From Streptomyces davaonensis JCM 4913 (GTDB taxonomy: Bacteria > Actinomycetota > Actinomycetes > Streptomycetales > Streptomycetaceae), in assembly GCF_000349325.1 (NCBI RefSeq), contig NC_020504.1:7482326-7546325 (forward strand): a stretch of DNA of 64,000 nt. The letters are read 5' to 3'. The notes under the pieces are model-generated. The model was given only the letters and a program-made list of their open reading frames with translations. It was not told the origin of the DNA and did not search any database. Below are positions 2,113 through 14,278 of the stretch, piece by piece (the stretch's first letter is position 1; the number at the start of each line of letters is the position of its first letter). Made by a program: the position numbers and the translations under genes.

Positions 2113-2116
<4 letters not shown>

Positions 2117-3624
2117 GCGGGCGCTCCCGGTGGAATGAAAGGCAGTCCTTGTGGCGCGCCCGACTCGATGAGCCGCCAGAGCGCGTCGGTGTCCGCGTGC
2201 TGTTCGATCAGATCGCCGAGCCGGTCGAGCTGCTCCTCGCGCAGCGCGGCGAAGGAGGTGTCGGCGGCCGGCACGAAACGGCGGCCCGCGGCGGCCGCCA
2301 CCTCGCGCAGGAAGGCGCGCCGGAAGCCGTCCGACTCCAGCGAGCCGTGCCAGTGGGTGCCCCAGGTCTGCCCGACCCGGCACCCGTCCAGGAACGGCTC
2401 ACCGCCCTCGACTTCAGCGACCCCGTGATGGATCTCGTACCCCTCGACCGGCTCTCCGAGGGCTTCCCCCACCGGCCGGGTGAGGGTCTTCTCGCGCGCG
2501 AACCGCACCCGTACGGGCAGCAGTCCGAGCCCGTCCACCGAGCCCCTGCGGCTCTCCACCTCGTCCTCGATGTGCTCGCCGAGGATCTGGAAGCCACCGC
2601 AGATGCCGAGCACGGGCCGCTGTTCGGCGGCCCGCCGCCGGATCGCCTCCGCGAGCCCGCGCTCCCGCAGCCACTCCAGCGCCCGCACGGTGCCGCGGGT
2701 GCCCGGGATGACCACGAGATCGGCGTCGGCCAGTTCCTCCGGCCGGTCCACGAACCGCACGACGACGCCCGGTTCGGCGGCGAGCGCGTCGACGTCGGTG
2801 AAGTTGGACATCAGCGGGATCGCACAGACGGCGACCCGCAGCACGTCCGCGCCGACCGGCGGCGCGACGACGGACTCCCGGACGGTGCCGCGCAGGGACA
2901 CCCGCAGCCCGTCCTCCTCGTCGATCCCGAGCCCGTGCCGGAAGGGCAGCACGCCGTAGGTGTGCCGCCCGGTGAGCCCGTGCAGCATGTCGAGCCCCGG
3001 CTCCAGCAGCGAGACATCGCCACGGAACTTGTTGACGAGGAACCCGGCGACGAGCTGCTGATCCTCGGGCGACAGCAGCGCGACGGTCCCGAAGAAGGAG
3101 GCGAACACACCCCCACGGTCGATGTCCCCGACCACCACCACGGGCAACCCGGCATTCCGGGCGATCCCCATGTTGACGATGTCGGTCCGCCGCAGATTGA
3201 TCTCGGCCGGACTGCCCGCCCCCTCACAGATCACCGCGTCATAAGTGCCCCGCAACTCCGCGAGACAGTCGAGCACGGTCCCGAGCAGCCGCTGCTGCCG
3301 CCCGCCGTGATACCCGCGCGCACTCATCTCACCCACGGGCTTTCCCATGAGCACGACCTGACTGCTCTGGTCCCCACCGGGCTTGAGCAGCACGGGGTTC
3401 ATCAGCGCGGTCGGCTCGACCCGGCAGGCCTGCGCCTGCATGGCCTGCGCCCGCCCGATCTCGGCGCCTTCGCGCGTGACGAACGAATTGAGGGACATGT
3501 TCTGCGCCTTGAACGGCGCGACTTTCACGCCCTGCCGCACCAGCCACCGACAGATCCCGGCGGTGACGACACTCTTCCCGGCATCGGAGGTGGTCCCGGC
3601 GACCAACAGTCCCCCGCCGGTCAT
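2113..3624 (-). CDS. cobQ: Cobyric acid synthase CobQ/CbiP
   Basis: Glutamine-dependent amidation of the b, d, e and g carboxylates of adenosyl-cobyrinic acid a,c-diamide. 503 residues, normal for the family. The N-terminal dethiobiotin-synthetase-like ATPase domain has the P-loop GTTSDAGKS at residues 10-18 followed by [12 protein letters not shown]. The C-terminal triad glutamine amidotransferase domain has the nucleophile block [10 protein letters not shown] near residue 345 and later YEIHHG. The reading frame is open further upstream, but the ATG at 3624 gives the family-typical N-terminus and overlaps the cobD stop codon as ATGA, so I chose it. Translationally coupled to cobD before it and cobN after it. 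Confidence 0.96.
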
Positions 3625-4562
3625 GATCGCGCTCCCTTCACGAGGCCGCGCGCGACGGCACTCACCCCGAGCGCCAGCCAACCGACCCGCCGAGACAGCC
3701 GTACGGCCCGCTCGATGTCCCCGACGTCCACAGCACGCCCCTCCCCGTTCAGCACCGGCCGATGCTCGATGCGTCCGCCGTACGACAAGGTCCCGCCGAG
3801 CCGCACCCCCAGCGCCCCCGCGAACGACGCCTCCACCGGCCCGGCGTTGGGGCTCGGGTGCTTCACCGCGTCGGTGCGCCAGGCGCGTACCGCACCTCGG
3901 GCATTCCCCCCGGCGACGGCGGCGAGTACGGCCGTCAGCCGTGCCCCCGGCCACCCGGCGACGTCGTCGAGCCGGGCCGAGGCCCACCCGTACCGCCGAT
4001 AACGGGCCGACTTGTGACCGACCATGGCATCAAGAGTGTTGACGGCCCGGAACCCGACCAGCCCGGGCACTCCACCCAAGGCCCCCCAAACCAGCGCCCC
4101 CACCACCGCATCGGAGGTGTTCTCGGCGACGGACTCCACGACCGCCCGCGCGATCCCGTCGGCGTCCAGCGCCTGCGGGTCCCGCCCGCACAGATGCGGC
4201 AGCCGCGCCCGAGCCGCCTCGACGTCCCCCGCCTCCAGCGCCCGCCCGATCACCCGGGCCTCGCGCGCCAGCGAAGTCCCCCCGACCACGGCCCAGGTGG
4301 CGACGCCCGTCAACGCGACGGAAGCGGCGGGGGACCGGCGTACCGCAAGAGAGGCGAGCGCCCCCAGGGCAACGGCACCACCGGCGCACACACCGGCGTG
4401 CAGCGCGCCCCGGCCCCGGTCGTCACGCCACAACAGCCGTTCCACGGCGCCCGCGGCCCGCCCGAACACGGCGACCGGATGCCCACGGCGCGGATCGCCG
4501 AGGAGCAGGTCACCCAGGAGGCCGGCGGCGGCGCCGTACGCGAAGACGCGATCGGCCCGCAT
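3621..4562 (-). CDS. cobD: Adenosylcobinamide-phosphate synthase CobD/CbiB
   Basis: Integral membrane enzyme that attaches aminopropanol (or its phosphate) to adenosylcobyric acid to give adenosylcobinamide (phosphate). 313 residues with several hydrophobic segments. It has the family N-terminal block [14 protein letters not shown] near residues 20-33 and the block [20 protein letters not shown] followed by [12 protein letters not shown] in the second half. The start chosen is the ATG giving [18 protein letters not shown]; the frame is open upstream into the riboswitch, which is non-coding. First gene of the operon, with its start roughly 100 bases downstream of the cobalamin aptamer. Confidence 0.94.
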
Positions 4563-4659
4563 CGGCTCAGCCGATCGCGGAGTCAGTAACGGGTCTGGTG
4601 CTGGATGTCGATCGGCAGGCGAGCATCGCGATATGTCCTCACTCAGGGTGTCCACGCCC

Positions 4660-4790
4660 TGGTACGACGAGACCGGCGGTGAGAGTTCCTGGCTCCCGGG
4701 GGTTCCTACCCCGGTGACAGTGGCGGGACCGCGCCGGACTCGCACCGGCTTCCTCTCCTGCCGCCGTAATTGGCTCCGGAAGTCCACCAC
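4660..4790 (-). promoter_or_regulatory. Cobalamin (B12) riboswitch upstream of cobD
   Basis: Read on the minus strand, 4755 down to 4715 contains GAAGCCGGTGCGAGTCCGG followed by CGGTCCCGCCACTGTCA, the actinobacterial form of the conserved cobalamin-riboswitch core (B12 box). Further 3', near 4698-4675, comes GGGAGCCAGGA then ACTCTCACC, the usual 3' side of the aptamer. Orientation and distance fit control of cobD-cobQ-cobN. The outer boundaries are estimates because P1 was not folded. About 100 bases separate it from the cobD ATG, room for an expression platform. The remaining 4791-4989 shows no gene. Confidence 0.9.
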
Positions 4791-4989
4791 GGCCCCGGAA
4801 GGGCCGTCAACTTGCCGTTGACCTGCGAGGGGAGAGTGTGCTGAGGCCCACATCGGGTCCGGCGGGACGGGTTTGGCCCACGGGGTCACCCACACGAGGT
4901 GACTACTCGGGAGCACCTTGCGGCTGCGCTGCGTGACGCCTTGGAATACGGGGACCGACCGAGCACAGCCGAGGGGGAGGGCCGGGTCC

Positions 4990-5346
4990 GTGGCGTACGT
5001 GGGCGAAATGATGCTGGACGACGGGCAGATCGTGCTGCTGGAGGTGAAGGGCGAGGGGCCGGCCGGAGTGCAGCGCGTGTCGCGCGGCGGCGTGGTCGCA
5101 GGGGCGGCGGAAACCCTCCAGCAGGCGCTCGCCCGAGTGCGTCCCGCGCTGGGCGCGGTCCTGGAGAGCACGCGGGGACTGCCCAGACCACCCGGAACGG
5201 TCACGGTCGAGTTCGGCATCACGCTGAGCGCGGAGGCGGGCGTGGTGGTCGCGCGTGGCTCCACGGAGGCCCACTTCACGGTGACGATGAACTGGGCGAA
5301 CGATCCGGCGCTTCCGGGGCAGCGCGATGCCGACGCCCACGCCTGA
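4990..5346 (+). CDS. Trypco1-domain protein (CU044_2847 family)
   Basis: Small protein of 118 residues from a GTG start (an in-frame ATG at 5008 is the alternative). It begins VAYVGEMMLDDGQIVLLEVK and contains the family-typical succession of a V-rich beta strand, a helix with ALARVRPALGAVLEST, then VTVEFGITLSAEAGVVVARG and AHFTVTMNW. This matches the trypsin-co-occurring domain 1 described by Kaur, Burroughs, Iyer and Aravind in predicted NTP-dependent conflict systems. It overlaps the next gene by 20 bases, and that gene encodes a trypsin-STAND protein, exactly the expected partner. The biochemical role of Trypco1 is unknown; it is presumed to sit between sensor and protease. The longer frame from 4918 lacks family similarity at its N-terminus. 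Confidence 0.85.
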   Translation: MAYVGEMMLDDGQIVLLEVKGEGPAGVQRVSRGGVVAGAAETLQQALARVRPALGAVLESTRGLPRPPGTVTVEFGITLSAEAGVVVARGSTEAHFTVTMNWANDPALPGQRDADAHA

Positions 5347-8300
5347 CGACGAACTCGCGCGCGGAATCGCCCGGTTCTGGAGTCACGACGGCCAGGTCAC
5401 GGGCAGCGGCTTCCTGATCGCGGAGGGCACGCTGTGCACGTGTGCCCATGTGGTGGCGAACGCGTTGGGGGTGCCCGAGACCGACTCCGGGGCCCCCGCC
5501 GCCCCGGTGACCGTCGACTTCCCGCTGCTGACCCCGCCCTCCGCCCGCCTCTCGGCGACGGTGACGCACTGGCGCCCGGTGGCGGGGGACGGCGGCGGCG
5601 ACATGGCGCTGCTCAGGCTGTCGCTAGTGGTCCCCGGCACCACACCTGTCCGCTTCGCGGGCGGCACAGCGGTCTGGGACCACCCCTTCCGCGTCCTCGG
5701 CTTCCCCCTCCTCACCGACGACCACGGCGTGTGGGTGGACGGCCGGTTGCGGGCGCCGGTGGGCAAGGGCTGGACATCGATGGAGCCGCGGGGCCGGACG
5801 ATCGGCCGGGGCTTCAGCGGCGGCCCGGTGTGGGACACGGAACAGTCCGGCGTCGTGGGCATGACGGTGGCGGCGGACACAGGAACAGGTGCGAGCACGG
5901 CGTACCTGATCCCGGCCGCGCTCCTGTTGGGCCTGGAGCCGGGATTACGCCCGTCCCCCTTCCGCGGCCTGGAACCCTTCCGCGAACAGGACGCAACGCT
6001 CTTCTTCGCCCGCAGATCGGACAGCGAACGCATCGCAGCGGCACTGCGCGAGCACCCTTTCGTCCCGGTGGCGGGAGCGTCGGGCGTAGGCAAGTCGTCG
6101 CTGGTACGAGCGGGAGTACTTCCGTTGCTGCGCTCGGCGGGCCACACGGTGACGGACTTCGCGGGCCAGCCGGACACGGACCCGGTCAGGACGCTGGCGG
6201 AGGCGCTGGGAGGGCAGTTCCCTCCGGTACGGGAGCTGGCGCGCACCCTGGGCCAGGACGGCTCGGCGGCGACGCTGCTCGGCGCCCGCATCCTGGAGGA
6301 GTCGGGCCCGGCGGGCCACGTCATCCTGCTGGACCAGTTCGAGGAGACGGTAGGAGCACGCCCGGCGGACGCGAGAGCGCTGCTGGACGTACTGCTGCCG
6401 ATGGCCAGGGCGGCCCACCCGGAAGGCCGCCGCCTACGCGTCCTCGCGACCCTGCGCTCGGCCTCCCTGGAGGAGTTGGTCACCGGCGGCCGGGCGGAGG
6501 CACTGAGCGGCACGGTCCAGATGGTCGCGCCGATGACCCCGTCCCAACTGGACGAGGTGGTCCGCCGCCCGATCGACGCGATCCCCGGGATGGAGTTCGA
6601 ACCGGGCCTGCCCGAACTGCTGGTGGCGGAGGCGGGCGGCGAGCCAGGAGCCCTGCCCCTGGTTGAGTTCACCCTGGCCGAACTCTGGGACCGCAGAGAG
6701 CACGGCCGCCTGACGCATGCGGCGTACCGGGAGATCGGCGGAGTGGAGGGCGCATTGTCCCGCTACGCCGACCAACAGTTGGCCCAGGTGTGCAAGCCCC
6801 CGGACGGTCCGGACGAGGCAACGGCCCGGCGGCTGTTCGAGCGGCTGGCCCGTCCGGTGCGGGGCAAGGAGTACGCACGGGTGGCGCGTGCCTTCGACCA
6901 ACTCCCACCGGAACTCCGCACTGCGGCACAGGCGTTGGCGGGCACTCGACTGTTGGTGATCTCCAGGGACAGTTCGGGGCGGGAGACGGTGGCGCTGGCG
7001 CATGAGGCGCTGGTGCGGCAATGGCCGACGCTGCGGCGGTGGTTGGACGAGTCGCGGGTGTTCTTGACGTGGCACGAGAAGTTGCGGAGCCGTCTGAGGG
7101 AATGGGAAGACAGCAGACGTCATGACGATCTGCTGCTGCGCGGGCAGGAGTTGGTGACGGCGCGGACGACGGCTGCACTGCGGCCCACTGAACTGTCCGT
7201 GTCGGAAAACGAGTTCATCCGCAGCAGCAAGGCTTACCAACGGCGATCGGTGCGGCGGGGGCGTACGGGGGTGGCGCTGGTGGCGGCGCTGGCCGTGCTC
7301 GCGGCGACACTGACCTACTTCGTCACGCAGGCGGGCCGGGACGCGGATCGGAGGGACAGGGAGGCGGCGGCGAACGAACTGGCGACCCTGGCGACGGACC
7401 GGTTCACCAGTGATCCGGTCGAGGGGGCCGCGCTTGCCGTGTTGGCGCATCGGACGGAGCCGACCGAGGAGACGTACAGGGCGCTGTTGGAGGTGTATCC
7501 GGGCATGGCCATGGCACAGAGCGTCGTGGAGGGGTTCCTGGGAGGGCGAGTCACCGCCCTGGCCGCCTCGGCGGACGGGAGCCGGGTGGCGGTGCTGACG
7601 GAGGATGATCAGGGCGGGGTACGTGGTGATGTGATCACCGGGCTCGCCGTCGGGAAGCCAGAGAAGCACGACCTGGACGGTGTGCCCGAGGGGGCCGACT
7701 CTGTGGCGGTGAGCGATGACGGGGCTCGGGTGGTGGCAGCGGGTCCCGAGGGGCAGGGCAAGGTGTGGCGGTCGGCCGACGGCGGGACGGTGGACGAGTG
7801 GTCCAGGCGTGACGATCCGGTTGAAGGAGAGAGCCTCGCCCTGGACTTCTCGGCGGACGGCCGGATCGTGCTGCATGTGGCGAGCAAGGACGGAGCCGAA
7901 TCCGGGCCGTGCCTGACGGGCACACTTCAGGACCGAGTGCGGCTGTACCTCCGCGACACGGACCGGGGACACACGAAGGGTGCTCCGCCGGGTCTGCTTC
8001 GAGCAGGGGCCTGCCTGACGCAAGCCGCTCTCACAGGTGCACCGGAGAAGAACACGCCACTGATCCTCCTGGGCGAGGAAGCGTCAACGGGTGACGTCAG
8101 GGATCCCGAGACGGTGCGTGCCCACGCGCTGGACTCCGGTGCGCAGCAATGGAGGAAGGACCCCCTCGACGCCATGTTGATCGGGGCCGGAGGCCGGACT
8201 CTCGGGGTAGTGGGGGAGCGAGAGTTCGACGGAAGCTATCAGGATCCGGCGACCGGCAAGCGGCTTGCGGTAGGGGGGAGATACGGCTCGCAGACGGTCT

Positions 8301-9586
8301 CGGAGGTGACCGGCCGCTTCGTCACCAATGATGCGACGGGTGACATCCTCTGGCATGACGTCGAAACGGGTGCGGACTACGTGACCTCTCGCCCCTTGGC
8401 CTACGCGGACATCCGGGAGGAATGCCCCGACAACCCTCTCGACCTCATCACGTCGCCGACTGGAAGGGGCCCGGTCCTGCATGTCCTGTGCAACCGGGAT
8501 CTGGTGACCTTCCGGTTGGATCCGGTACGGCACGTGCCGATGCAGGACTGGAAAGAGTCGGCCGCGTTCGCTCCGTCCGGCCAGGAGTTGGCCGTGGTCG
8601 GAACCGTCGATGCGTCAGCACTGCTGGAGGGCCGCCTTGTGCTCTCGGTGCGCGGCGGGAATCGATGGCGGGAACTGCGCGCCGATTGGGGTGAGTTTGG
8701 TATGCAGTCCCCCGACTCTGCCGTCTTCAGCAGAAGTGGTCGCGCGCTTGTTGCCTGGGGGGACATGGGGTGGGCGCTCTACGAGGTAGGTACCACTGGG
8801 CTGCGTCTGGTGAGGAAAGCCCCGGACGGTGGACCAAGCCCCACGGGGGATCCTCTCGTGCGGGACATCCGTGCCTTGGGAAGCGATGACTTCCTCATGC
8901 TTGGCGCAGGTGGTGTTCAGCGGCTCGGCGCGGACGGCGGCCTCACCTCCGCGCACGCGCCCGACTGCGGTGATCCGCGAGTGAAGAGCCAGGCTCACTG
9001 CCTGGCGGTCGAGGTCTCGCCGAAGAACGGAACGGCCTGGGTTCTCAGACGGGATGGGACGGTCACCTTCTGGGACCCGGAGGATGAGAGCGGGCACGCC
9101 ACGACACGGCGCCTGGGGCTCCTCCCGGACGATTTTCAGCGACTGGGGATGCGTTTCCGGGACGACGGCGAGCGCTTGGCGGTGATGCTCCGCGACGAGA
9201 CGGTTGTGGTGAACCCCGCCACGGGAGAAAGAGATCACCAGCTACCCGCCCGAGGCAACACCATGATCGGTGCCTACGGCAGTGACGGGCGGATCGTGCT
9301 GGCATCGGGGTTTGGCCACGGTGCTTCCGATGCCGAGCTCTGGTCCGAGCATGGGGAGGAGCCCATCGGTTCTCTGGGCACCCTTTGGTCGGACGGCGCC
9401 TGGCGCATCGCCGACAACGTCCTTCACTACGGCACGGACTGGGGGATCGGGACGATCCCGCTGGATGAGGGCTCCCTCGTCAAGACCCTGTGCGGTTCGC
9501 TCGGCGACTACGACCCGCGCGCCCTCAGGGAGGACCTCCCACCCGCGGCGTACGCGAAAGCGCCCTGTGCCGCAGACCCCCGCTAG
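5327..9586 (+). CDS. Trypsin-like protease / nSTAND1 NTPase / transmembrane / WD40-like propeller protein
   Basis: 1,419 residues. Residues 1-205 are a trypsin-fold protease with an apparently intact triad: H41 in TCAHVV, D92 in DMALLRL and S164 in GRGFSGGPVWD. Residues 210-620 are a STAND NTPase introduced by FRGLEPFREQDATLFFARR, with Walker A GASGVGKSS (250-258), Walker B VILLDQFEE (332-340) and downstream winged-helix-type segments ending LAHEALVRQWPTLRRWLDE. A single transmembrane helix lies at about 648-668, preceded by the basic run RRSVRRGR, which predicts N-in/C-out. The C-terminal 700 residues are degenerate beta-propeller repeats (SADGSRVAVL, SDDGARVVAAG, SGQELAVVG, RDGTVTFWDP, DGERLAVML). 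Inference: a membrane receptor with an outside sensor and a cytosolic protease, likely for defence or self-recognition. The 20-base overlap with the Trypco1 gene implies co-translation. Codon bias looks weaker in the propeller than in the N-terminal half. Confidence 0.88.
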   Translation: MPTPTPDDELARGIARFWSHDGQVTGSGFLIAEGTLCTCAHVVANALGVPETDSGAPAAPVTVDFPLLTPPSARLSATVTHWRPVAGDGGGDMALLRLSLVVPGTTPVRFAGGTAVWDHPFRVLGFPLLTDDHGVWVDGRLRAPVGKGWTSMEPRGRTIGRGFSGGPVWDTEQSGVVGMTVAADTGTGASTAYLIPAALLLGLEPGLRPSPFRGLEPFREQDATLFFARRSDSERIAAALREHPFVPVAGASGVGKSSLVRAGVLPLLRSAGHTVTDFAGQPDTDPVRTLAEALGGQFPPVRELARTLGQDGSAATLLGARILEESGPAGHVILLDQFEETVGARPADARALLDVLLPMARAAHPEGRRLRVLATLRSASLEELVTGGRAEALSGTVQMVAPMTPSQLDEVVRRPIDAIPGMEFEPGLPELLVAEAGGEPGALPLVEFTLAELWDRREHGRLTHAAYREIGGVEGALSRYADQQLAQVCKPPDGPDEATARRLFERLARPVRGKEYARVARAFDQLPPELRTAAQALAGTRLLVISRDSSGRETVALAHEALVRQWPTLRRWLDESRVFLTWHEKLRSRLREWEDSRRHDDLLLRGQELVTARTTAALRPTELSVSENEFIRSSKAYQRRSVRRGRTGVALVAALAVLAATLTYFVTQAGRDADRRDREAAANELATLATDRFTSDPVEGAALAVLAHRTEPTEETYRALLEVYPGMAMAQSVVEGFLGGRVTALAASADGSRVAVLTEDDQGGVRGDVITGLAVGKPEKHDLDGVPEGADSVAVSDDGARVVAAGPEGQGKVWRSADGGTVDEWSRRDDPVEGESLALDFSADGRIVLHVASKDGAESGPCLTGTLQDRVRLYLRDTDRGHTKGAPPGLLRAGACLTQAALTGAPEKNTPLILLGEEASTGDVRDPETVRAHALDSGAQQWRKDPLDAMLIGAGGRTLGVVGEREFDGSYQDPATGKRLAVGGRYGSQTVSEVTGRFVTNDATGDILWHDVETGADYVTSRPLAYADIREECPDNPLDLITSPTGRGPVLHVLCNRDLVTFRLDPVRHVPMQDWKESAAFAPSGQELAVVGTVDASALLEGRLVLSVRGGNRWRELRADWGEFGMQSPDSAVFSRSGRALVAWGDMGWALYEVGTTGLRLVRKAPDGGPSPTGDPLVRDIRALGSDDFLMLGAGGVQRLGADGGLTSAHAPDCGDPRVKSQAHCLAVEVSPKNGTAWVLRRDGTVTFWDPEDESGHATTRRLGLLPDDFQRLGMRFRDDGERLAVMLRDETVVVNPATGERDHQLPARGNTMIGAYGSDGRIVLASGFGHGASDAELWSEHGEEPIGSLGTLWSDGAWRIADNVLHYGTDWGIGTIPLDEGSLVKTLCGSLGDYDPRALREDLPPAAYAKAPCAADPR

Positions 9587-9625
9587 GGGATCCCGGAACA
9601 GGGCGCGAGTCCGTGCCGAGAGGCG

Positions 9626-9847
9626 TCAGGCCACGATCAGATAGATCCCGTACCCCACCGCCGCAGCGCACGCCGCGAAGCACGCGTACGCGCCCGTGAC
9701 CGCCGCTGTCGCGGTGCCGCCCTGCTCCGCCGCCCGCTCGCGGCGGGCGAGGCCCGAGATGCCGAGGGTGAAGAGGGCCACGAGGGCCACGGTGACCACG
9801 AGGCTGACGCCGAAGACGGAGCCGAGGGCCGCCCAGTCGATCTTCAT
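9626..9847 (-). CDS. Small two-helix membrane protein downstream of pit
   Basis: 73 residues, MKIDWAALGSVFGVSLVVTV..., with one hydrophobic segment near residues 8-32 and a second near 47-72, joined by a charged loop containing ARRERAAEQ. The ATG has a good GAAGGAAAC-type ribosome site. It starts 28 bases after the phosphate-transporter stop codon on the same strand, so it is probably co-transcribed with it and may share its phosphate control. I recognise no named domain; an accessory role to Pit is inference from position only. Confidence 0.75.
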   Translation of the reverse strand: MKIDWAALGSVFGVSLVVTVALVALFTLGISGLARRERAAEQGGTATAAVTGAYACFAACAAAVGYGIYLIVA

Positions 9848-9875
9848 GGTGATGTTTCCTTCGCTGCGTGGGGGG

Positions 9876-11111
9876 TCAGACGGTGGCCTGCGACGGAGCC
9901 GGCTCGCCCGCGGGGGCCGGGATCGTCGCCGCGAGGTCCTCGGCCACCGGGCCCGTCGGCGGCGGGGTGACCGCGGCCATCGCCGTAGTCACGACACCCG
10001 CGGGCTCCTCGGTCCCGTTGACGTTCGTGTGGTCGACGACCTCACGACGCGAGATCTTCCAGATCGCCGCACTGGAGGCGACCAGGAACACCGCGACAAG
10101 GCCGGTACCCCAGCTGCCGAAGCCCGTGACCCACTCCGCGATCGCAGCGACCAGCGCTGCCGCGGGAAGGGTCAGACCCCACGCGACGAACATCCGCGTG
10201 GCCGTCGACCAGCGCACGACACCACCCTTGCGCCCGAGCCCCGCGCCCATCACCGAGCCGGAGACGGAGTGCGTGGTGGAGAGGGAGAAGCCGAGGTGGG
10301 AGGAGGCCAGGATGACCGTCGCCGCGCTGGTCTGGGCGGCGAAGCCCTGCTGCGGCTGGAGGTCGGTGAGGCCCTTGCCCATGGTGCGGATGATCCGCCA
10401 GCCGCCGAGGTACGTACCGAGCGCGATGGCGAGGCCCGCGGAGAGGATGACCCACATGGGCGGATCGGAGTCGGGGGCGAGGGTGCCGCCGGCGACCAGG
10501 GCGAGGGTGATGATGCCCATCGTCTTCTGGGCGTCGTTGGTGCCGTGGGCGAGGGAGACCAGACCGGCGGAGGCGATCTGCCCGGCGCGGTAGCCCTTCT
10601 CGGAGGACTTGCTGCCCTCGGCCTTCTTGCCGAGCGAGTACATCAGCTTCGTCGCCAGCATCGCCGCGATGCCCGCGACCAGCGGGGCGGCGATGGCCGG
10701 GATCAGGACCTTGGTGACGAGCACGTCACCGTGGACCGCGCCGACGCCCGCCGACGCGATGGTGGCGCCGATCAGACCGCCCATGAGGGCGTGCGAGGAA
10801 CTGGAGGGCAGGCCCACCAGCCAGGTCACCAGGTTCCAGAGGATCGCGCCGACCAGGGCGGCGAATATGACCTCGGGACGGATGCCGGTCTCGTCGACGA
10901 GACCTTTGGAGATCGTGTTGGCGACCTCCACGGAGAGGAAGGCGCCGACAAGGTTCAGCGTGGCGGACATGGCCACCGCGACCTTGGGCTTGAGCGCACC
11001 GGTCGAGATGGTGGTGGCCATCGCGTTGGCGGTGTCGTGGAAACCGTTCGTGAAATCGAACGCGAGTGCGGTTACCACCACAATCGCGAGGATCAGCGAG
11101 AAGCTTTCCAT
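9876..11111 (-). CDS. pit: Low-affinity inorganic phosphate transporter, PiT family
   Basis: Phosphate (metal-phosphate) symporter of the plasma membrane. 411 residues, about ten hydrophobic segments split by a hydrophilic central loop (LGKKAEGSKSSEKGYRAG). The duplicated PiT signature is visible as DFTNGFHDTANAMAT near residues 18-32 and as LAHGTNDAQKTMG near the middle. The C-terminus is a proline/alanine-rich tail. A PHO-box-like array lies 37-69 bases upstream, and Streptomyces Pit genes (pitH2 in S. coelicolor) are known PhoP targets, so repression or activation by PhoR-PhoP is expected. Followed by a 73-residue membrane protein gene. I see no DUF47 accessory gene next to it. Confidence 0.95.
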   Translation of the reverse strand: MESFSLILAIVVVTALAFDFTNGFHDTANAMATTISTGALKPKVAVAMSATLNLVGAFLSVEVANTISKGLVDETGIRPEVIFAALVGAILWNLVTWLVGLPSSSSHALMGGLIGATIASAGVGAVHGDVLVTKVLIPAIAAPLVAGIAAMLATKLMYSLGKKAEGSKSSEKGYRAGQIASAGLVSLAHGTNDAQKTMGIITLALVAGGTLAPDSDPPMWVILSAGLAIALGTYLGGWRIIRTMGKGLTDLQPQQGFAAQTSAATVILASSHLGFSLSTTHSVSGSVMGAGLGRKGGVVRWSTATRMFVAWGLTLPAAALVAAIAEWVTGFGSWGTGLVAVFLVASSAAIWKISRREVVDHTNVNGTEEPAGVVTTAMAAVTPPPTGPVAEDLAATIPAPAGEPAPSQATV

Positions 11112-11147
11112 TTACCCAGGCAATCTTTCGAAGTCATTGGCCGGACG

Positions 11148-11180
11148 AACGTAGGTAACCTGGATGAACGGAAGGTGAAC
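11148..11180 (-). promoter_or_regulatory. PHO box (PhoP direct-repeat units) upstream of pit
   Basis: On the minus strand three adjacent 11-base units are read in order: GTTCACCTTCC (11180-11170), GTTCATCCAGG (11169-11159) and TTACCTACGTT (11158-11148). The first two fit the Streptomyces PhoP direct-repeat unit well (GTTCA-C/T-C); the third is degenerate. The array ends 37 bases before the pit ATG, a position consistent with control of that promoter. Confidence 0.75.
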
Positions 11181-11275
11181 TGGGGCGGGCCGCACGGTGT
11201 CCGAAGGTGAGTTTCGGCCTTCCGTTTGGATTGTGCGGCCCCGCGCGACTCCGCGCCCCCTAGTCGCCCCAAGGG

Positions 11276-12025
11276 TCAGGAGCCCCGGGCGAACTTCCTG
11301 AGCTGGCTCAGGGACCCGTTGAAGAGATTCTGGTCACCCGGCAGGCTGCCGCCGTTGTCGTACTGCCAGAAGGTCCACATCGACCAGCCGGCCGGCAGCG
11401 TGCCCGCGCTGGTGGAGTTGTAGCGGGCCACCCACAGCGCGTGATTCGCGGCGAAGGCCCGGCTGCCGCCCGTGCAGGTGTTCCACCAGTGGGCGGTCGT
11501 GTAGATCACCGGCCGACGGCCGGTCAGCCGCTTGACCTCGCCGCTGAACGCCTTGATCCAGCTGACCATCTTCGACCGGGTCAGGCCGTAGCACTTGTGG
11601 TCCTTGTCGTACGGGTTGTACTCGATGTCCAGCGCGGGCGGCAGCGTCCAGCCGTCCGCCGTCCAGCCGCCGCCGTTGCGTACGAAGTGCGCGGCCTGGG
11701 TCTTCCCCGACGACTTGTTCGGCAGGGCGAAGTGGTACGCCCCGCGGATCAGGCCCGCCCCGCGGGAGCCGTTGTACTGCTGGTTGAAGTACGGGTTGCG
11801 GTAGGTGTGGGATTCGGTCGCCTTGACGTAGACGAACCTGGCGCCCTTGGACTTCGCGCGCTGCCAGTCGACGTTCTTCTGGTGGGACGAGACGTCATGC
11901 CCCTTGGGCCGGCTCGCCGCGGCGGCCGGAGTCTCGGCCAGCGCGGTTCCCCCGACGGTCAGCGCTGCCACGGACGCCGCGAGAACGCGGGCGCGGTGGC
12001 GGGACGGTTTGCGATCACGAGCCAT
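11276..12025 (-). CDS. Secreted GH25 lysozyme (muramidase)
   Basis: Hydrolyses the N-acetylmuramic acid-N-acetylglucosamine bond of peptidoglycan. 249 residues from the ATG that follows a GGGGGGA ribosome site. An upstream in-frame ATG adds nine residues without benefit. Signal peptide: basic start MARDRKPSRHRAR, hydrophobic core VLAASVAALTVGGTALA, then TPAAAASR cleavage region. Mature domain: KGHDVSSHQ with D44, and the catalytic PALDIEYN with D133 and E135, followed by YTTAHWWNTC and WTFWQYDN, all GH25 hallmarks. No separate cell-wall-binding module is present, so this is a single-domain enzyme. Monocistronic by spacing; divergent from the aldolase gene. Confidence 0.94.
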   Translation of the reverse strand: MARDRKPSRHRARVLAASVAALTVGGTALAETPAAAASRPKGHDVSSHQKNVDWQRAKSKGARFVYVKATESHTYRNPYFNQQYNGSRGAGLIRGAYHFALPNKSSGKTQAAHFVRNGGGWTADGWTLPPALDIEYNPYDKDHKCYGLTRSKMVSWIKAFSGEVKRLTGRRPVIYTTAHWWNTCTGGSRAFAANHALWVARYNSTSAGTLPAGWSMWTFWQYDNGGSLPGDQNLFNGSLSQLRKFARGS

Positions 12026-12221
12026 GTTTCCCCCCGGAATGGCGACGTGCACAACAAATCAGCCAGAGCGTAGTGGAAGTTCAGGAATTGCCCGTCGATC
12101 TCCGGCCAAGCACGGAGAAGCATCCTTCTGCCCCTCTATGCGCCCTTCCGGACGTTTGACTTCCGTCCTAAAGTGCCCCCGCCCGGCGGCCGTTCGGGGA
12201 CAGGGCTGGCAGGATCGCGGC

Positions 12222-12953
12222 ATGGCTGAGCAGCGAGGGAAGCGGCGGGGCGCGGGGGAAGCGGGGGAGAGCGCACGGGAAGTGCGGGAGCCGTGGCCGG
12301 ATGGTGTACGTCCGGAGGAGGCGCGGGCCTGGGAGGACCTGGTCGCCACCGCCCGCCGGACGGTCTCCGAGGGGCTGGTGGTGGGGACCTCTGGCAATGT
12401 CTCGGTGCGCGTCGGGGACACGGTCCTGGTCACACCGTCGGGAGTGCCGTACGACCGGCTCACGCCCGAGGACATCACGGGCGTCGACCTCTCCGGCCGC
12501 CAGGTGCTCGGAACGCTCCGGCCGACCAGTGAGCTGCCGATGCATCTCGCCGTCTACGGCGCCACCGACGCCCGCGCCGTCGTCCACACCCACGCGGTGC
12601 ATGCCACGGCGGTCTCGACGCTGGTCCAGGAGGTCCCGGCGATCCACTACATCACCGCCGACCTCGGCGGCCCCGCCCGGGTTGCCCCGTATGCGACATA
12701 CGGCACCGAGGAGTTGGCCGAGAACATGCTCCGAGCCCTGACCGACCGCACCGCCTGCCTACTCCAGAACCACGGCACGATGACCTACGGCACGACCCTG
12801 TCCCAGGCCTACGACCGCACGGCGCAGCTGGAGTGGATGTGCCGAGTGTGGCTGACGGCATCTTCGGTGCCGGGCTTGACGCCGTCACTGCTGTCGGGCG
12901 AGCAGCTGGCCGAGGTGCAGCAAAAGCTCCGGGGTTACGGTCAGCCCACCTAG
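12222..12953 (+). CDS. Class II aldolase/adducin family protein (fuculose-phosphate-aldolase-like)
   Basis: Zinc-dependent aldol cleavage of a sugar phosphate; substrate not deducible. 243 residues from the ATG giving MAEQRGKRRG. The family features are GTSGNVSVR near residue 55, the catalytic Glu in TSELPMH (E104), zinc-ligand histidines in VVHTHAVHA (H122, H124) and QNHGTM (H185). The first ~28 residues are a charged extension not needed for the fold. The longer open frame from 11847 runs through the lysozyme promoter region and is not credible. No sugar kinase or isomerase gene is next to it. Confidence 0.9.
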   Translation: MAEQRGKRRGAGEAGESAREVREPWPDGVRPEEARAWEDLVATARRTVSEGLVVGTSGNVSVRVGDTVLVTPSGVPYDRLTPEDITGVDLSGRQVLGTLRPTSELPMHLAVYGATDARAVVHTHAVHATAVSTLVQEVPAIHYITADLGGPARVAPYATYGTEELAENMLRALTDRTACLLQNHGTMTYGTTLSQAYDRTAQLEWMCRVWLTASSVPGLTPSLLSGEQLAEVQQKLRGYGQPT

Positions 12954-13150
12954 CTGCGGGTAATCGTGCCGCTGGGGCGGCACGGGTGGGCGCAGCGGCA
13001 CCCCGCACGCGCGGGCGAGCGAGCCCACCCCCGCAGCAACCCCCACCCCGCAGCACCCCCCACCCGCCGAGCCCCGACCCGCCGAGCCCCCCGTCACCCG
13101 CATCCGTCCCTCCACTGGCCGCTGACGGGGTCCGCCAGGACACTGGACCC

Positions 13151-14278
13151 GTGCGCACTGTCACAGCGACGGCCGCAGCCGTCACCATGGCCCTGGCCGC
13201 CGGCGCGGCAAGCGTGGCCGCCGGCCGCCTCGCCAGCGACGCCGCGCTCAAGGCGCCCCCCGGCAGACCCCTGCCCACCGAACCCCGGCTCACGGTGCAC
13301 GGCACGGCGGCCGGCCAGATCACGCTCACCCGTGACCTGGCCTCCCTGCGCCCCGGCACCTACGGCCTCGGCGGCGACGGCTCGCACGCGGTCGTCGGCC
13401 CCGTCCTCCCCACGGCGACCCACACCGCCGACACCGCGGTCCGCCGCCTGGAACGCGTCACCCACGGCACCCTCGCCCCCGGCGACCGCGTCTGGTTCAC
13501 CCCCAACCTCTACGTCGGTGACCCCGGCTCCGCCCTCGGCCTCGACCACGCCGACATCGACATCCCCGGCGAACTCGGCTCCCTGCCCGCGTGGTTCGTC
13601 CCCGGCACCCGCACCACCTGGGTCATCGCGGTGCACGGCCTCGGCACCACCCGCGAACTGTCCATGAACGTCATGGAGTTCCTCGCCGCCCGCAAGTTCC
13701 CGGTCCTCGCCCTCGCCTACCGCGGCGACCTCGGCGCACCCCGCTCCCCGGACGGCCTCAACCACCTCGGCGAGACCGAGTGGCGCGACCTGGACGCGGC
13801 GATCCGCTACGCCGTGCGCTACGGCGCCGAACAGGTCGTCCTGCTCGGCTGGTCCATCGGCGCCACCATGGCCCTGCGCGCAGCCGCCCACTCCGGACTG
13901 CGCGACCGCGTCTCCGGGCTCGTCCTGGACTCCCCGGTGCTCAACTGGGAGGCGACCCTGCGCGCCCTCGCCGCGGCCCGCCGCACCCCGGGTGCCCTGC
14001 TCCCGCTGGCCGTCCGCGCCGCCCAGGGCCGTACGGGCCTGTACGGCGACCATGCCACCCCCGGCGACAGCCCGGACACGCTCACCGTGCCGACCCTGAT
14101 CTTCCACGGCCCCGACGACACCGTCGCCCCCTGGATCCACTCCCGCCGCCTCGCGGACGCCCGTCCCAACCTGGTCAACCTCCACACCGTCAAGCGCGCT
14201 CCCCACGGCGCCATGTGGAACGCCGACCCCAAGTCCTACGAGGAATCCCTGCGCCGCTTCCTGACCCCCCTCATGTGA
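13151..14278 (+). CDS. Alpha/beta hydrolase, probably membrane-anchored or exported
   Basis: Serine hydrolase of unknown substrate, 375 residues from GTG 13151. This start gives a short basic N-terminus followed by the hydrophobic stretch AAAVTMALAAGAASVAAG, a signal or anchor. The frame upstream to 12833 overlaps the aldolase gene and encodes low-complexity Pro/Ala sequence, so I reject it. The hydrolase core has VIAVHGLGTTRE (oxyanion strand), the nucleophile elbow LLGWSIGATMALRAA with Ser near residue 235, the acid in FHGPDDTVAP and the histidine in KRAPHGAMW. The middle resembles acyl-peptidase/serine-aminopeptidase-like hydrolases. Convergent with nothing; the next gene starts 172 bases downstream on the same strand. 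Confidence 0.88.
   Translation: MRTVTATAAAVTMALAAGAASVAAGRLASDAALKAPPGRPLPTEPRLTVHGTAAGQITLTRDLASLRPGTYGLGGDGSHAVVGPVLPTATHTADTAVRRLERVTHGTLAPGDRVWFTPNLYVGDPGSALGLDHADIDIPGELGSLPAWFVPGTRTTWVIAVHGLGTTRELSMNVMEFLAARKFPVLALAYRGDLGAPRSPDGLNHLGETEWRDLDAAIRYAVRYGAEQVVLLGWSIGATMALRAAAHSGLRDRVSGLVLDSPVLNWEATLRALAAARRTPGALLPLAVRAAQGRTGLYGDHATPGDSPDTLTVPTLIFHGPDDTVAPWIHSRRLADARPNLVNLHTVKRAPHGAMWNADPKSYEESLRRFLTPLM

Follow-up and report, generated by a model that had tools for sequence, protein, structure and literature searches.

A predicted single-pass transmembrane STAND receptor with a cytosolic protease and a fast-changing outer propeller, encoded beside a Trypco1 gene in Streptomyces davaonensis

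A 64,000-nucleotide stretch of DNA from Streptomyces davaonensis JCM 4913 (contig NC_020504.1 of assembly GCF_000349325.1, positions 7,482,326 to 7,546,325; the window) carries two overlapping genes on its plus strand. The first (4990..5346, 118 amino acids, GTG start) encodes Trypco1, a small partner protein that co-occurs with proteases; the second (5327..9586, 1419 amino acids, ATG start) encodes a large receptor in which a serine protease, an nSTAND1 NTPase and a long C-terminal tail are joined. The genes overlap by 20 nucleotides, and the open reading frames (ORFs) and their translations bear out the coordinates given for the pair in the first-pass annotation, which was made from the DNA letters. 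The STAND receptors that have been studied as immune sensors of bacteria monitor the cell interior (PMC10907252; statements on this and the other cited papers refer to the parts of them that were available). The question raised by this locus is whether its receptor looks outside, and to what end. The answer favoured here, and considered fairly probable, is a single-pass transmembrane STAND receptor with a cytosolic serine protease and nSTAND1 domain, one transmembrane helix, a stalk and a fast-changing outer double propeller, which would switch on binding a ligand and work with Trypco1 as its partner. The parts, topology, conservation and gene coupling in this reading are supported by the results below; ligand binding, switching, activation and output are steps that we infer.

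The receptor contains one clear candidate for a transmembrane helix. Mean hydropathy reaches 2.24 over residues 648-666, and the other stretches above 1.4 are two of 1.44 each, at the protease His motif and at residues 1088-1106. The predicted helix (residues 648-668; 7268..7330, plus strand) is preceded by an Arg-rich cytosolic flank (residues 637-647; 7235..7267, plus) and followed by a helical stalk (residues 669-727; 7331..7507, plus), the AlphaFold model having helices at residues 642-695, 697-710 and 714-727. A homologue search gave 1310 proteins at E <= 1e-10 among 7987 scored, of which 120 were listed. When genome contigs were scanned with a single protein, one locus alone was obtained. 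Protease and nSTAND domains are combined in 100 of these 120, and the helix is present in 96 of the 100, with an N-flank more positive than the C-flank in every one of the 96. Behind the helix, the tails have a median length of 747 residues, and none of the 100 protease-nSTAND homologues contains a later window above 1.8 hydropathy. Conservation also changes at this point. The best single change-point along the chain lies after residue 659, inside the helix, mean site identity dropping there from 0.72 to 0.32. When a second set of 58 homologues was aligned on its own, the change-point came directly before the helix. In the comparison with S. blattellae (P0012), identity is 9/10 at residues 650-659 and 2/10 at residues 660-669. 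Hydropathy, flank charge and the model helix agree on the single helix with a strongly basic N-flank that had been read at about residues 648-668.

Further information on topology comes from the cysteines of the tail. Eight are present (862, 896, 1033, 1055, 1214, 1225, 1389 and 1414; 7910..9568, plus strand), and four disulfides are proposed for them. Six of the eight are conserved in 33 or 34 of the 34 close homologues, whose average identity is only 26-37% in the tail and 74% in the protease-NTPase core. Cys 1033 and Cys 1055 occur together, in 10 of these proteins, while the remaining 24 have neither; rarer tail cysteines are also paired in several homologues, with exceptions, and the total is odd in 7 of the 34. 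Among 116 proteins with the helix, the Cys number is even in 98 tails and in 59 cytosolic halves. When the tails were thinned to less than 50% identity, which leaves some relatedness among them, an even number remained in 57 of 68 tails (p 1.3e-8) and in 30 of 68 cytosolic halves (p 0.40). The propeller is thus probably held by disulfides, the four pairs being proposed from order and joint presence; as evidence on topology the two Cys results are mutually dependent. Because the flank is Arg-rich, the Cys counts of the tail are mostly even and the change-point falls inside the helix, the propeller is placed outside. Several results together therefore predict a cytosolic protease and NTPase and an extracytoplasmic propeller, the arrangement first proposed for this protein.

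The outer part (residues 730-1378; 7514..9460, plus strand) is confidently modelled as a WD40-type double propeller, an assignment that draws on model strands, Foldseek, VIA-align and the Cys pattern. The AlphaFold model of the receptor, built from 39 diverged sequences, has a predicted local distance difference test score (pLDDT) of 85.9 and a predicted template modelling score (pTM) of 0.87, and its tail matches WD40 double propellers in both Foldseek and VIA-align. Solved structures matching the tail are mostly intracellular WD40 proteins, including Apaf-1 (3shf, 3sfz). The Pfam scan found no propeller family above cut-off in the receptor.

The propeller changes much faster than the rest of the pair. 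In comparison with Streptomyces sp. TRM68416 (L114), the ratio of nonsynonymous to synonymous substitution rates (dN/dS) is 0.11 for Trypco1, 0.29 for the protease, 0.14-0.15 for the NTPase, 0.23 for the helix and stalk, and 0.42-0.56 for the tail; dS is 0.44-0.86 for the receptor, 0.61 for Trypco1, and 0.29-0.43 for the neighbouring cobQ, cobD and pit. Since dN/dS is highest in the tail, the outer part is accumulating amino-acid changes in place at a higher rate, and the fastest change is found at residues 961-1190. In the comparison with G022 (L133), which carries the pair at the same locus, the inner part is 84-89% identical (dS 0.53-0.77), and from the helix outward identity is 29-44% (dS 0.93-1.59), a pattern suggestive of recombination having exchanged the tail, or of near-saturation. 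The GC content of third codon positions is 0.76-0.81 in the tail, 0.92 in the protease and 0.85 in the NTPase. The weaker codon bias noted earlier for the propeller is therefore real, and the fast change suspected from it is supported by the higher dN/dS and by the lower tail identity in alignment with homologues. A query with the tail alone (residues 670-1419) showed no sign of it behind other outputs among the matches listed: these were 12 proteins, including the receptor itself, of 7996 scored, each already among the 120 listed homologues and each with Trypsin_2 and nSTAND1.

The first-pass annotation had considered a membrane version of such an NTPase to be an uncommon design. This claim did not hold and is rejected on the presence of the same helix in three sets of proteins, none of which is a sample free of bias. 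The helix follows nSTAND1 in 116 of the 120 closest homologues, and an Arg-flanked helix follows it in 20/20 genus relatives without a protease, both sets having been found by likeness to a query that itself contains the helix. In a sample of the phylum covering 296 genomes, 42 contained nSTAND1 at E <= 1e-60; the best-scoring locus was taken from each of 30, 28 of these were long enough, and all 28 testable proteins had the helix, 50-69 residues past the domain, 23 of them lying outside the genus.

The cytosolic side is considerably more varied. Among the 150 matches listed in the genus search, 98 begin at residue 179 or later and therefore have no protease. In the 20 protease-less relatives, of which L148 is incomplete at the end of its stretch, the N-terminus as judged by eye is an XRE-like helix-turn-helix (HTH) in 15 and another shared one in 5; HTH_3 was found by Pfam in 2 of 6 scanned relatives without a protease. 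An even Cys number occurs in 16/20 of their tails and 9/20 of their cytosolic parts. Other cytosolic outputs identified by Pfam among the 120 listed homologues are TIR (at least 7), SARP (at least 3) and kinase (at least 1). Among actinobacterial nSTAND1 proteins, the helix is very probably a feature of the whole class, combined with exchangeable cytosolic outputs. Because the same helix was found in 28/28 testable proteins of the phylum sample and in 20/20 relatives without a protease, the window receptor appears to belong to a modular class of STAND receptors that span the membrane. The HTH N-termini suit general signalling as well as conflict. When three HTH-type relatives were scanned with PADLOC, two gave weak mad3 matches (E 6.4e-4 and 1.2e-4). 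In the HTH-type relative L136, residues 1074-1285 of the WD40 region matched HEAT-ARM_XIII (E 1.6e-40), which is taken as a repeat match.

A wider view of this class can be put forward, though tentatively and with somewhat less than even confidence. Actinomycetota nSTAND1 proteins as a whole may be single-pass surface receptors, bacterial equivalents of the NLR/Apaf-1-type switches found inside cells; in them, one disulfide-bonded extracytoplasmic propeller architecture would be coupled through the membrane to interchangeable cytosolic outputs (protease with Trypco1, HTH, TIR, SARP or kinase). Rapid substitution and the exchange of tails at the membrane boundary would diversify their ectodomain, in the manner of surface immune receptors.

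Both enzymatic domains of the window receptor appear intact. The protease domain (Trypsin_2, PF13365; residues 26-179; 5402..5863, plus strand) matches with 43.3 bits against a cut-off of 27.6. Its triad H41/D92/S164 is identical in 34/34 closest homologues and kept in 94 of 97 aligned trypsin segments; the other three have gaps in place of H and D, and for one of these, P0030, the triad is visible in the alignment of closest homologues. The nSTAND1 domain (PF20703; residues 211-600; 5957..7126, plus) matches with 301.9 bits against a cut-off of 27.1 (E 1.3e-89), covering profile positions 1-378 of 379. Lys 256 of Walker A (GASGVGKS, 250-257) and Asp 336 of Walker B (ILLDQFEE, 333-340) are kept in 34/34 closest homologues, and both occur in 114 of 120 aligned segments. 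The triad and Walker motifs that had been described as intact are so throughout the close family, with no substitution of a triad residue. The Ser motif at residues 162-166 reads GFSG followed by A, G or S in most proteins, with F in 89/97; classical trypsins have Asp where this family has F. The motif hints at activation of the protease by a route other than zymogen cleavage.

The protease region alone had no PDB sequence match at E <= 0.1, and the NTPase region gave two chance-like matches only. In PADLOC the protease part gave only a weak match, to RT-Protease_XI (E 1.3e-6 and 5.6e-6), that extends over 150 of about 500 positions, further matches being weaker still (mad8, E 0.022; PDC-M35A, E 0.045); the Pfam scan of the receptor found no reverse transcriptase domain.

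The Trypco1 assignment comes from family profiles, the frame from 4918 matching PF19493 with 95.8 bits against a cut-off of 24.6 (E 2.5e-27) and NCBIfam NF041216 with E 2.1e-20. The Trypco1 of L114 is 88% identical to that of the window. Within the genus, Trypco1 was found in 117 of 150 genomes and receptor matches, including relatives without a protease, in 116 of 150; in the phylum it was found in 19 of 396 genomes, 12 of them in the genus. Among the matches listed, 49 protease-nSTAND genes were compared, leaving out a frameshifted gene of G119 (L053) with Trypco1 upstream. In 34 of the 49, a same-strand Trypco1 match ends 0-159 nucleotides upstream of where the receptor is estimated to start; it lies downstream in 5 and 673 nucleotides upstream in 1, and is missing in 9, around all of which 8-17.5 kb were scanned. 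In the S. davaonensis genome, all four Trypco1 genes adjoin a Trypsin_2 gene while only two of these four proteases carry nSTAND1; Trypco1 thus goes with the protease rather than with nSTAND1, as a common but not obligatory companion. Its slow evolution beside a fast ectodomain fits a cytosolic partner. The Trypco1 structure model, made from two sequences, was too poor for structure search (pLDDT 52.3), and its beta-beta-alpha-beta-beta order is at most a hint. The profile gave only weak matches to solved structures, mostly designed helical bundles, and profile scans found no Trypco1 in viral contigs. Fusion of Trypco1 to the protease, suggested by open frames of up to 1592 amino acids, was rejected, as the two occupy separate frames in L107, L108 and L111; in L109, L110 and L112 no protease was found with the profile built on the family of the window receptor. 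A second Trypco1 gene with a protease-nSTAND1 protein occurs in the same genome (L113, G000:C1:6150000-6160000), in a frame of 1527 amino acids with 33% identity to the window receptor over residues 9-819. Tandem protease-nSTAND receptor pairs with Trypco1 genes between or before them were seen in L096 (G122:C33) and L100 (G044:C1).

On one side of the pair lie cobD and cobQ with a cobalamin riboswitch (RF00174, 45 bits; 4664-4803, minus strand) that is upstream of cobD and adjoins the insertion point; on the other lie the PHO4 phosphate transporter gene pit, GH25, an aldolase and a hydrolase. The seven neighbouring ORFs between 2116 and 14275 are CobQ, CobD, a short unnamed ORF, PHO4, GH25, aldolase II and an alpha/beta hydrolase. 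The cobD-pit position holds a receptor-Trypco1 pair in the window, L114 and G022. More distant receptors occupy it in the same orientation, with no Trypco1 match, in G001, G009 and G104, the NTPase core being 49-50% identical in the two of these that were measured. In 19/19 further genomes the gap has no receptor domain and measures 587-756 bp in 17 and 1196 and 2901 bp in two; these genomes were picked for a close pit gene, from which no frequency can be derived. Occupied and empty sites together show the pair to be an accessory element, inserted at one fixed position between cobD and pit. The long gaps, in L124 (6403-9305, 2901 bp) and L128 (1176-2373, 1196 bp), deserve mention, one L124 frame resembling an HTH regulator by eye; the site may accept varied cargo. 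A promoter and terminator scan found nothing.

In the mechanism proposed for the transmembrane STAND receptor, the propeller would bind a changing extracytoplasmic ligand, most likely a phage, bacteriocin or neighbour surface molecule, with an envelope or chemical cue as the alternative. Binding would be relayed through stalk and helix, on which nSTAND1 would exchange nucleotide and assemble. The clustered protease domains may then turn active and cut one or more cytosolic proteins, leading to growth arrest, death or a regulatory switch. Trypco1, from the overlapping gene, would be the usual cytosolic partner of the protease, as inhibitor, chaperone or substrate adaptor, and would hold or target it. 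The chances of a defence or conflict role are about even; the role is considered because of the fast ectodomain, the accessory site and the company kept by the families (PMC7159879, PMC8195603, PMC10907252).

A number of observations weigh against this reading. The predicted topology would require export of a C-terminal part of 750 residues after one internal helix, and 4 of the 100 protease-nSTAND homologues have no helix at the hydropathy threshold used. An odd number of tail cysteines is found in 18 of 116 proteins, and the four homologues without a helix, too few to serve as a control, split into two even and two odd. Nine of the 49 receptor genes, including three at the cobD-pit site (L095, L097, L101), have no Trypco1 nearby. 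An average dN/dS below 1 would fit relaxed constraint as well as diversifying selection, so that positive selection is unproven. The family scan of the seven neighbouring ORFs found no defence gene, no PADLOC system was clearly matched by the receptor and none at all by Trypco1; HTH-like outputs, seen in many relatives, and the metabolic genes nearby also speak against defence. On the whole, the topology, the fast change of the propeller and the accessory presence of the pair are supported, and the rarity of the design is not.

In a rival explanation, the same topology would belong to an ordinary signalling receptor, whose propeller senses a cue (envelope, developmental or chemical) and whose protease carries out regulated proteolysis with no conflict role. 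WD-40 proteins were reportedly linked to differentiation in S. coelicolor by Ulrych in 2013. The protease-less relatives, with their XRE-like N-termini (15/20), their HTH_3 matches (2/6) and the helix in all 20, are likely membrane-tied regulators, and the neighbours of the pair are metabolic genes beside a cobalamin riboswitch. The yeast SPS sensor is a precedent for a signalling unit built from a surface sensor, a WD40 protein and an endoprotease (PMC12958826). This account is less probable than the favoured one, though by no means negligible; the very fast change outside the membrane, the accessory presence at one site, the TIR domains that at least 7 of the 120 listed homologues carry and the link of Trypco1 to predicted conflict systems (PMC7159879) favour conflict.

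Much less probable is a cytosolic tail. The hydrophobic stretch would then form a helix that is buried or peripheral, and the receptor would be a soluble STAND protein sensing ligands within the cell, like the Avs-type proteins. The solved matches of the tail are mostly intracellular, Apaf-1 among them, and characterised antiviral STAND proteins bind conserved phage proteins (PMC10907252); however, hydropathy of 2.24 behind an Arg-rich flank, paired and conserved tail cysteines, a conservation break inside the helix and the same helix in 28/28 testable phylum proteins all argue against it. A degenerating or neutral locus, with a tail losing function and a remnant protease-NTPase, could account for the tail dN/dS of 0.42-0.56 by relaxed constraint and for the empty cobD-pit site in 19/19 other genomes, but is very improbable for a receptor ORF with no frameshift or stop, a triad, Walker K and D and six tail cysteines kept in 33 or 34 of 34 homologues, a Trypco1 dN/dS of 0.11 and a confident fold obtained from 39 diverged sequences.

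If the transmembrane reading is true, a large outward-looking class in actinobacteria would be either a surface arm of STAND immunity or a widespread one-chain signalling system. The break in rate at the membrane provides a handle for further work: the ligand site would be expected where change is fastest, at residues 961-1190.

Comparison with known systems shows partial likenesses. Apaf-1, unlike the window receptor, is soluble and has neither a protease domain in its chain nor a transmembrane helix. The open literature, in the parts available, contained no description of a helix after nSTAND1 or of Trypco1 with nSTAND1; since subscription papers and supplements were outside the search, no priority is claimed for the design. 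The available text on prokaryotic WD40 proteins in PMC5587647 makes no mention of trypsin or NACHT.

Trypco1 was linked to predicted conflict systems in 2020 (PMC7159879), and the pair resembles the system described there in having a Trypco1 gene beside a trypsin-like peptidase, in its NTP dependence and in its occurrence mostly in multicellular bacteria. The pair differs from the VMAP / MoxR-vWA ternary system of the same paper in that no MoxR or vWA gene was found when the seven ORFs around it (2116 to 14275) were scanned, and in that its protease is fused to nSTAND1 and a transmembrane propeller. The nSTAND1 systems of Burroughs and Aravind 2021 (PMC8195603) share the exchange of N-terminal effectors, including trypsin and caspase peptidases; in the available text, however, nSTAND1 is described with FGS (lectin-fold) domains, and neither a helix after it nor an extracytoplasmic propeller is named. 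The EACC1-caspase membrane system (PMC7159879) has a caspase instead of a trypsin, and its small partner has a transmembrane helix of its own and is not Trypco1. Its similarity lies in a two-gene operon with a small 5' partner and a second, peptidase-bearing protein, which has transmembrane helices in at least 33% of cases and sometimes an extracellular domain; nSTAND1 is sometimes present in this system (PMC8195603). The yeast SPS sensor Ssy1-Ptr3-Ssy5 consists of three proteins with a transporter-like sensor and offers an analogy only, but in it, too, an extracellular signal frees a cytosolic endoprotease (Ssy5) with the participation of a WD40 component (PMC12958826).

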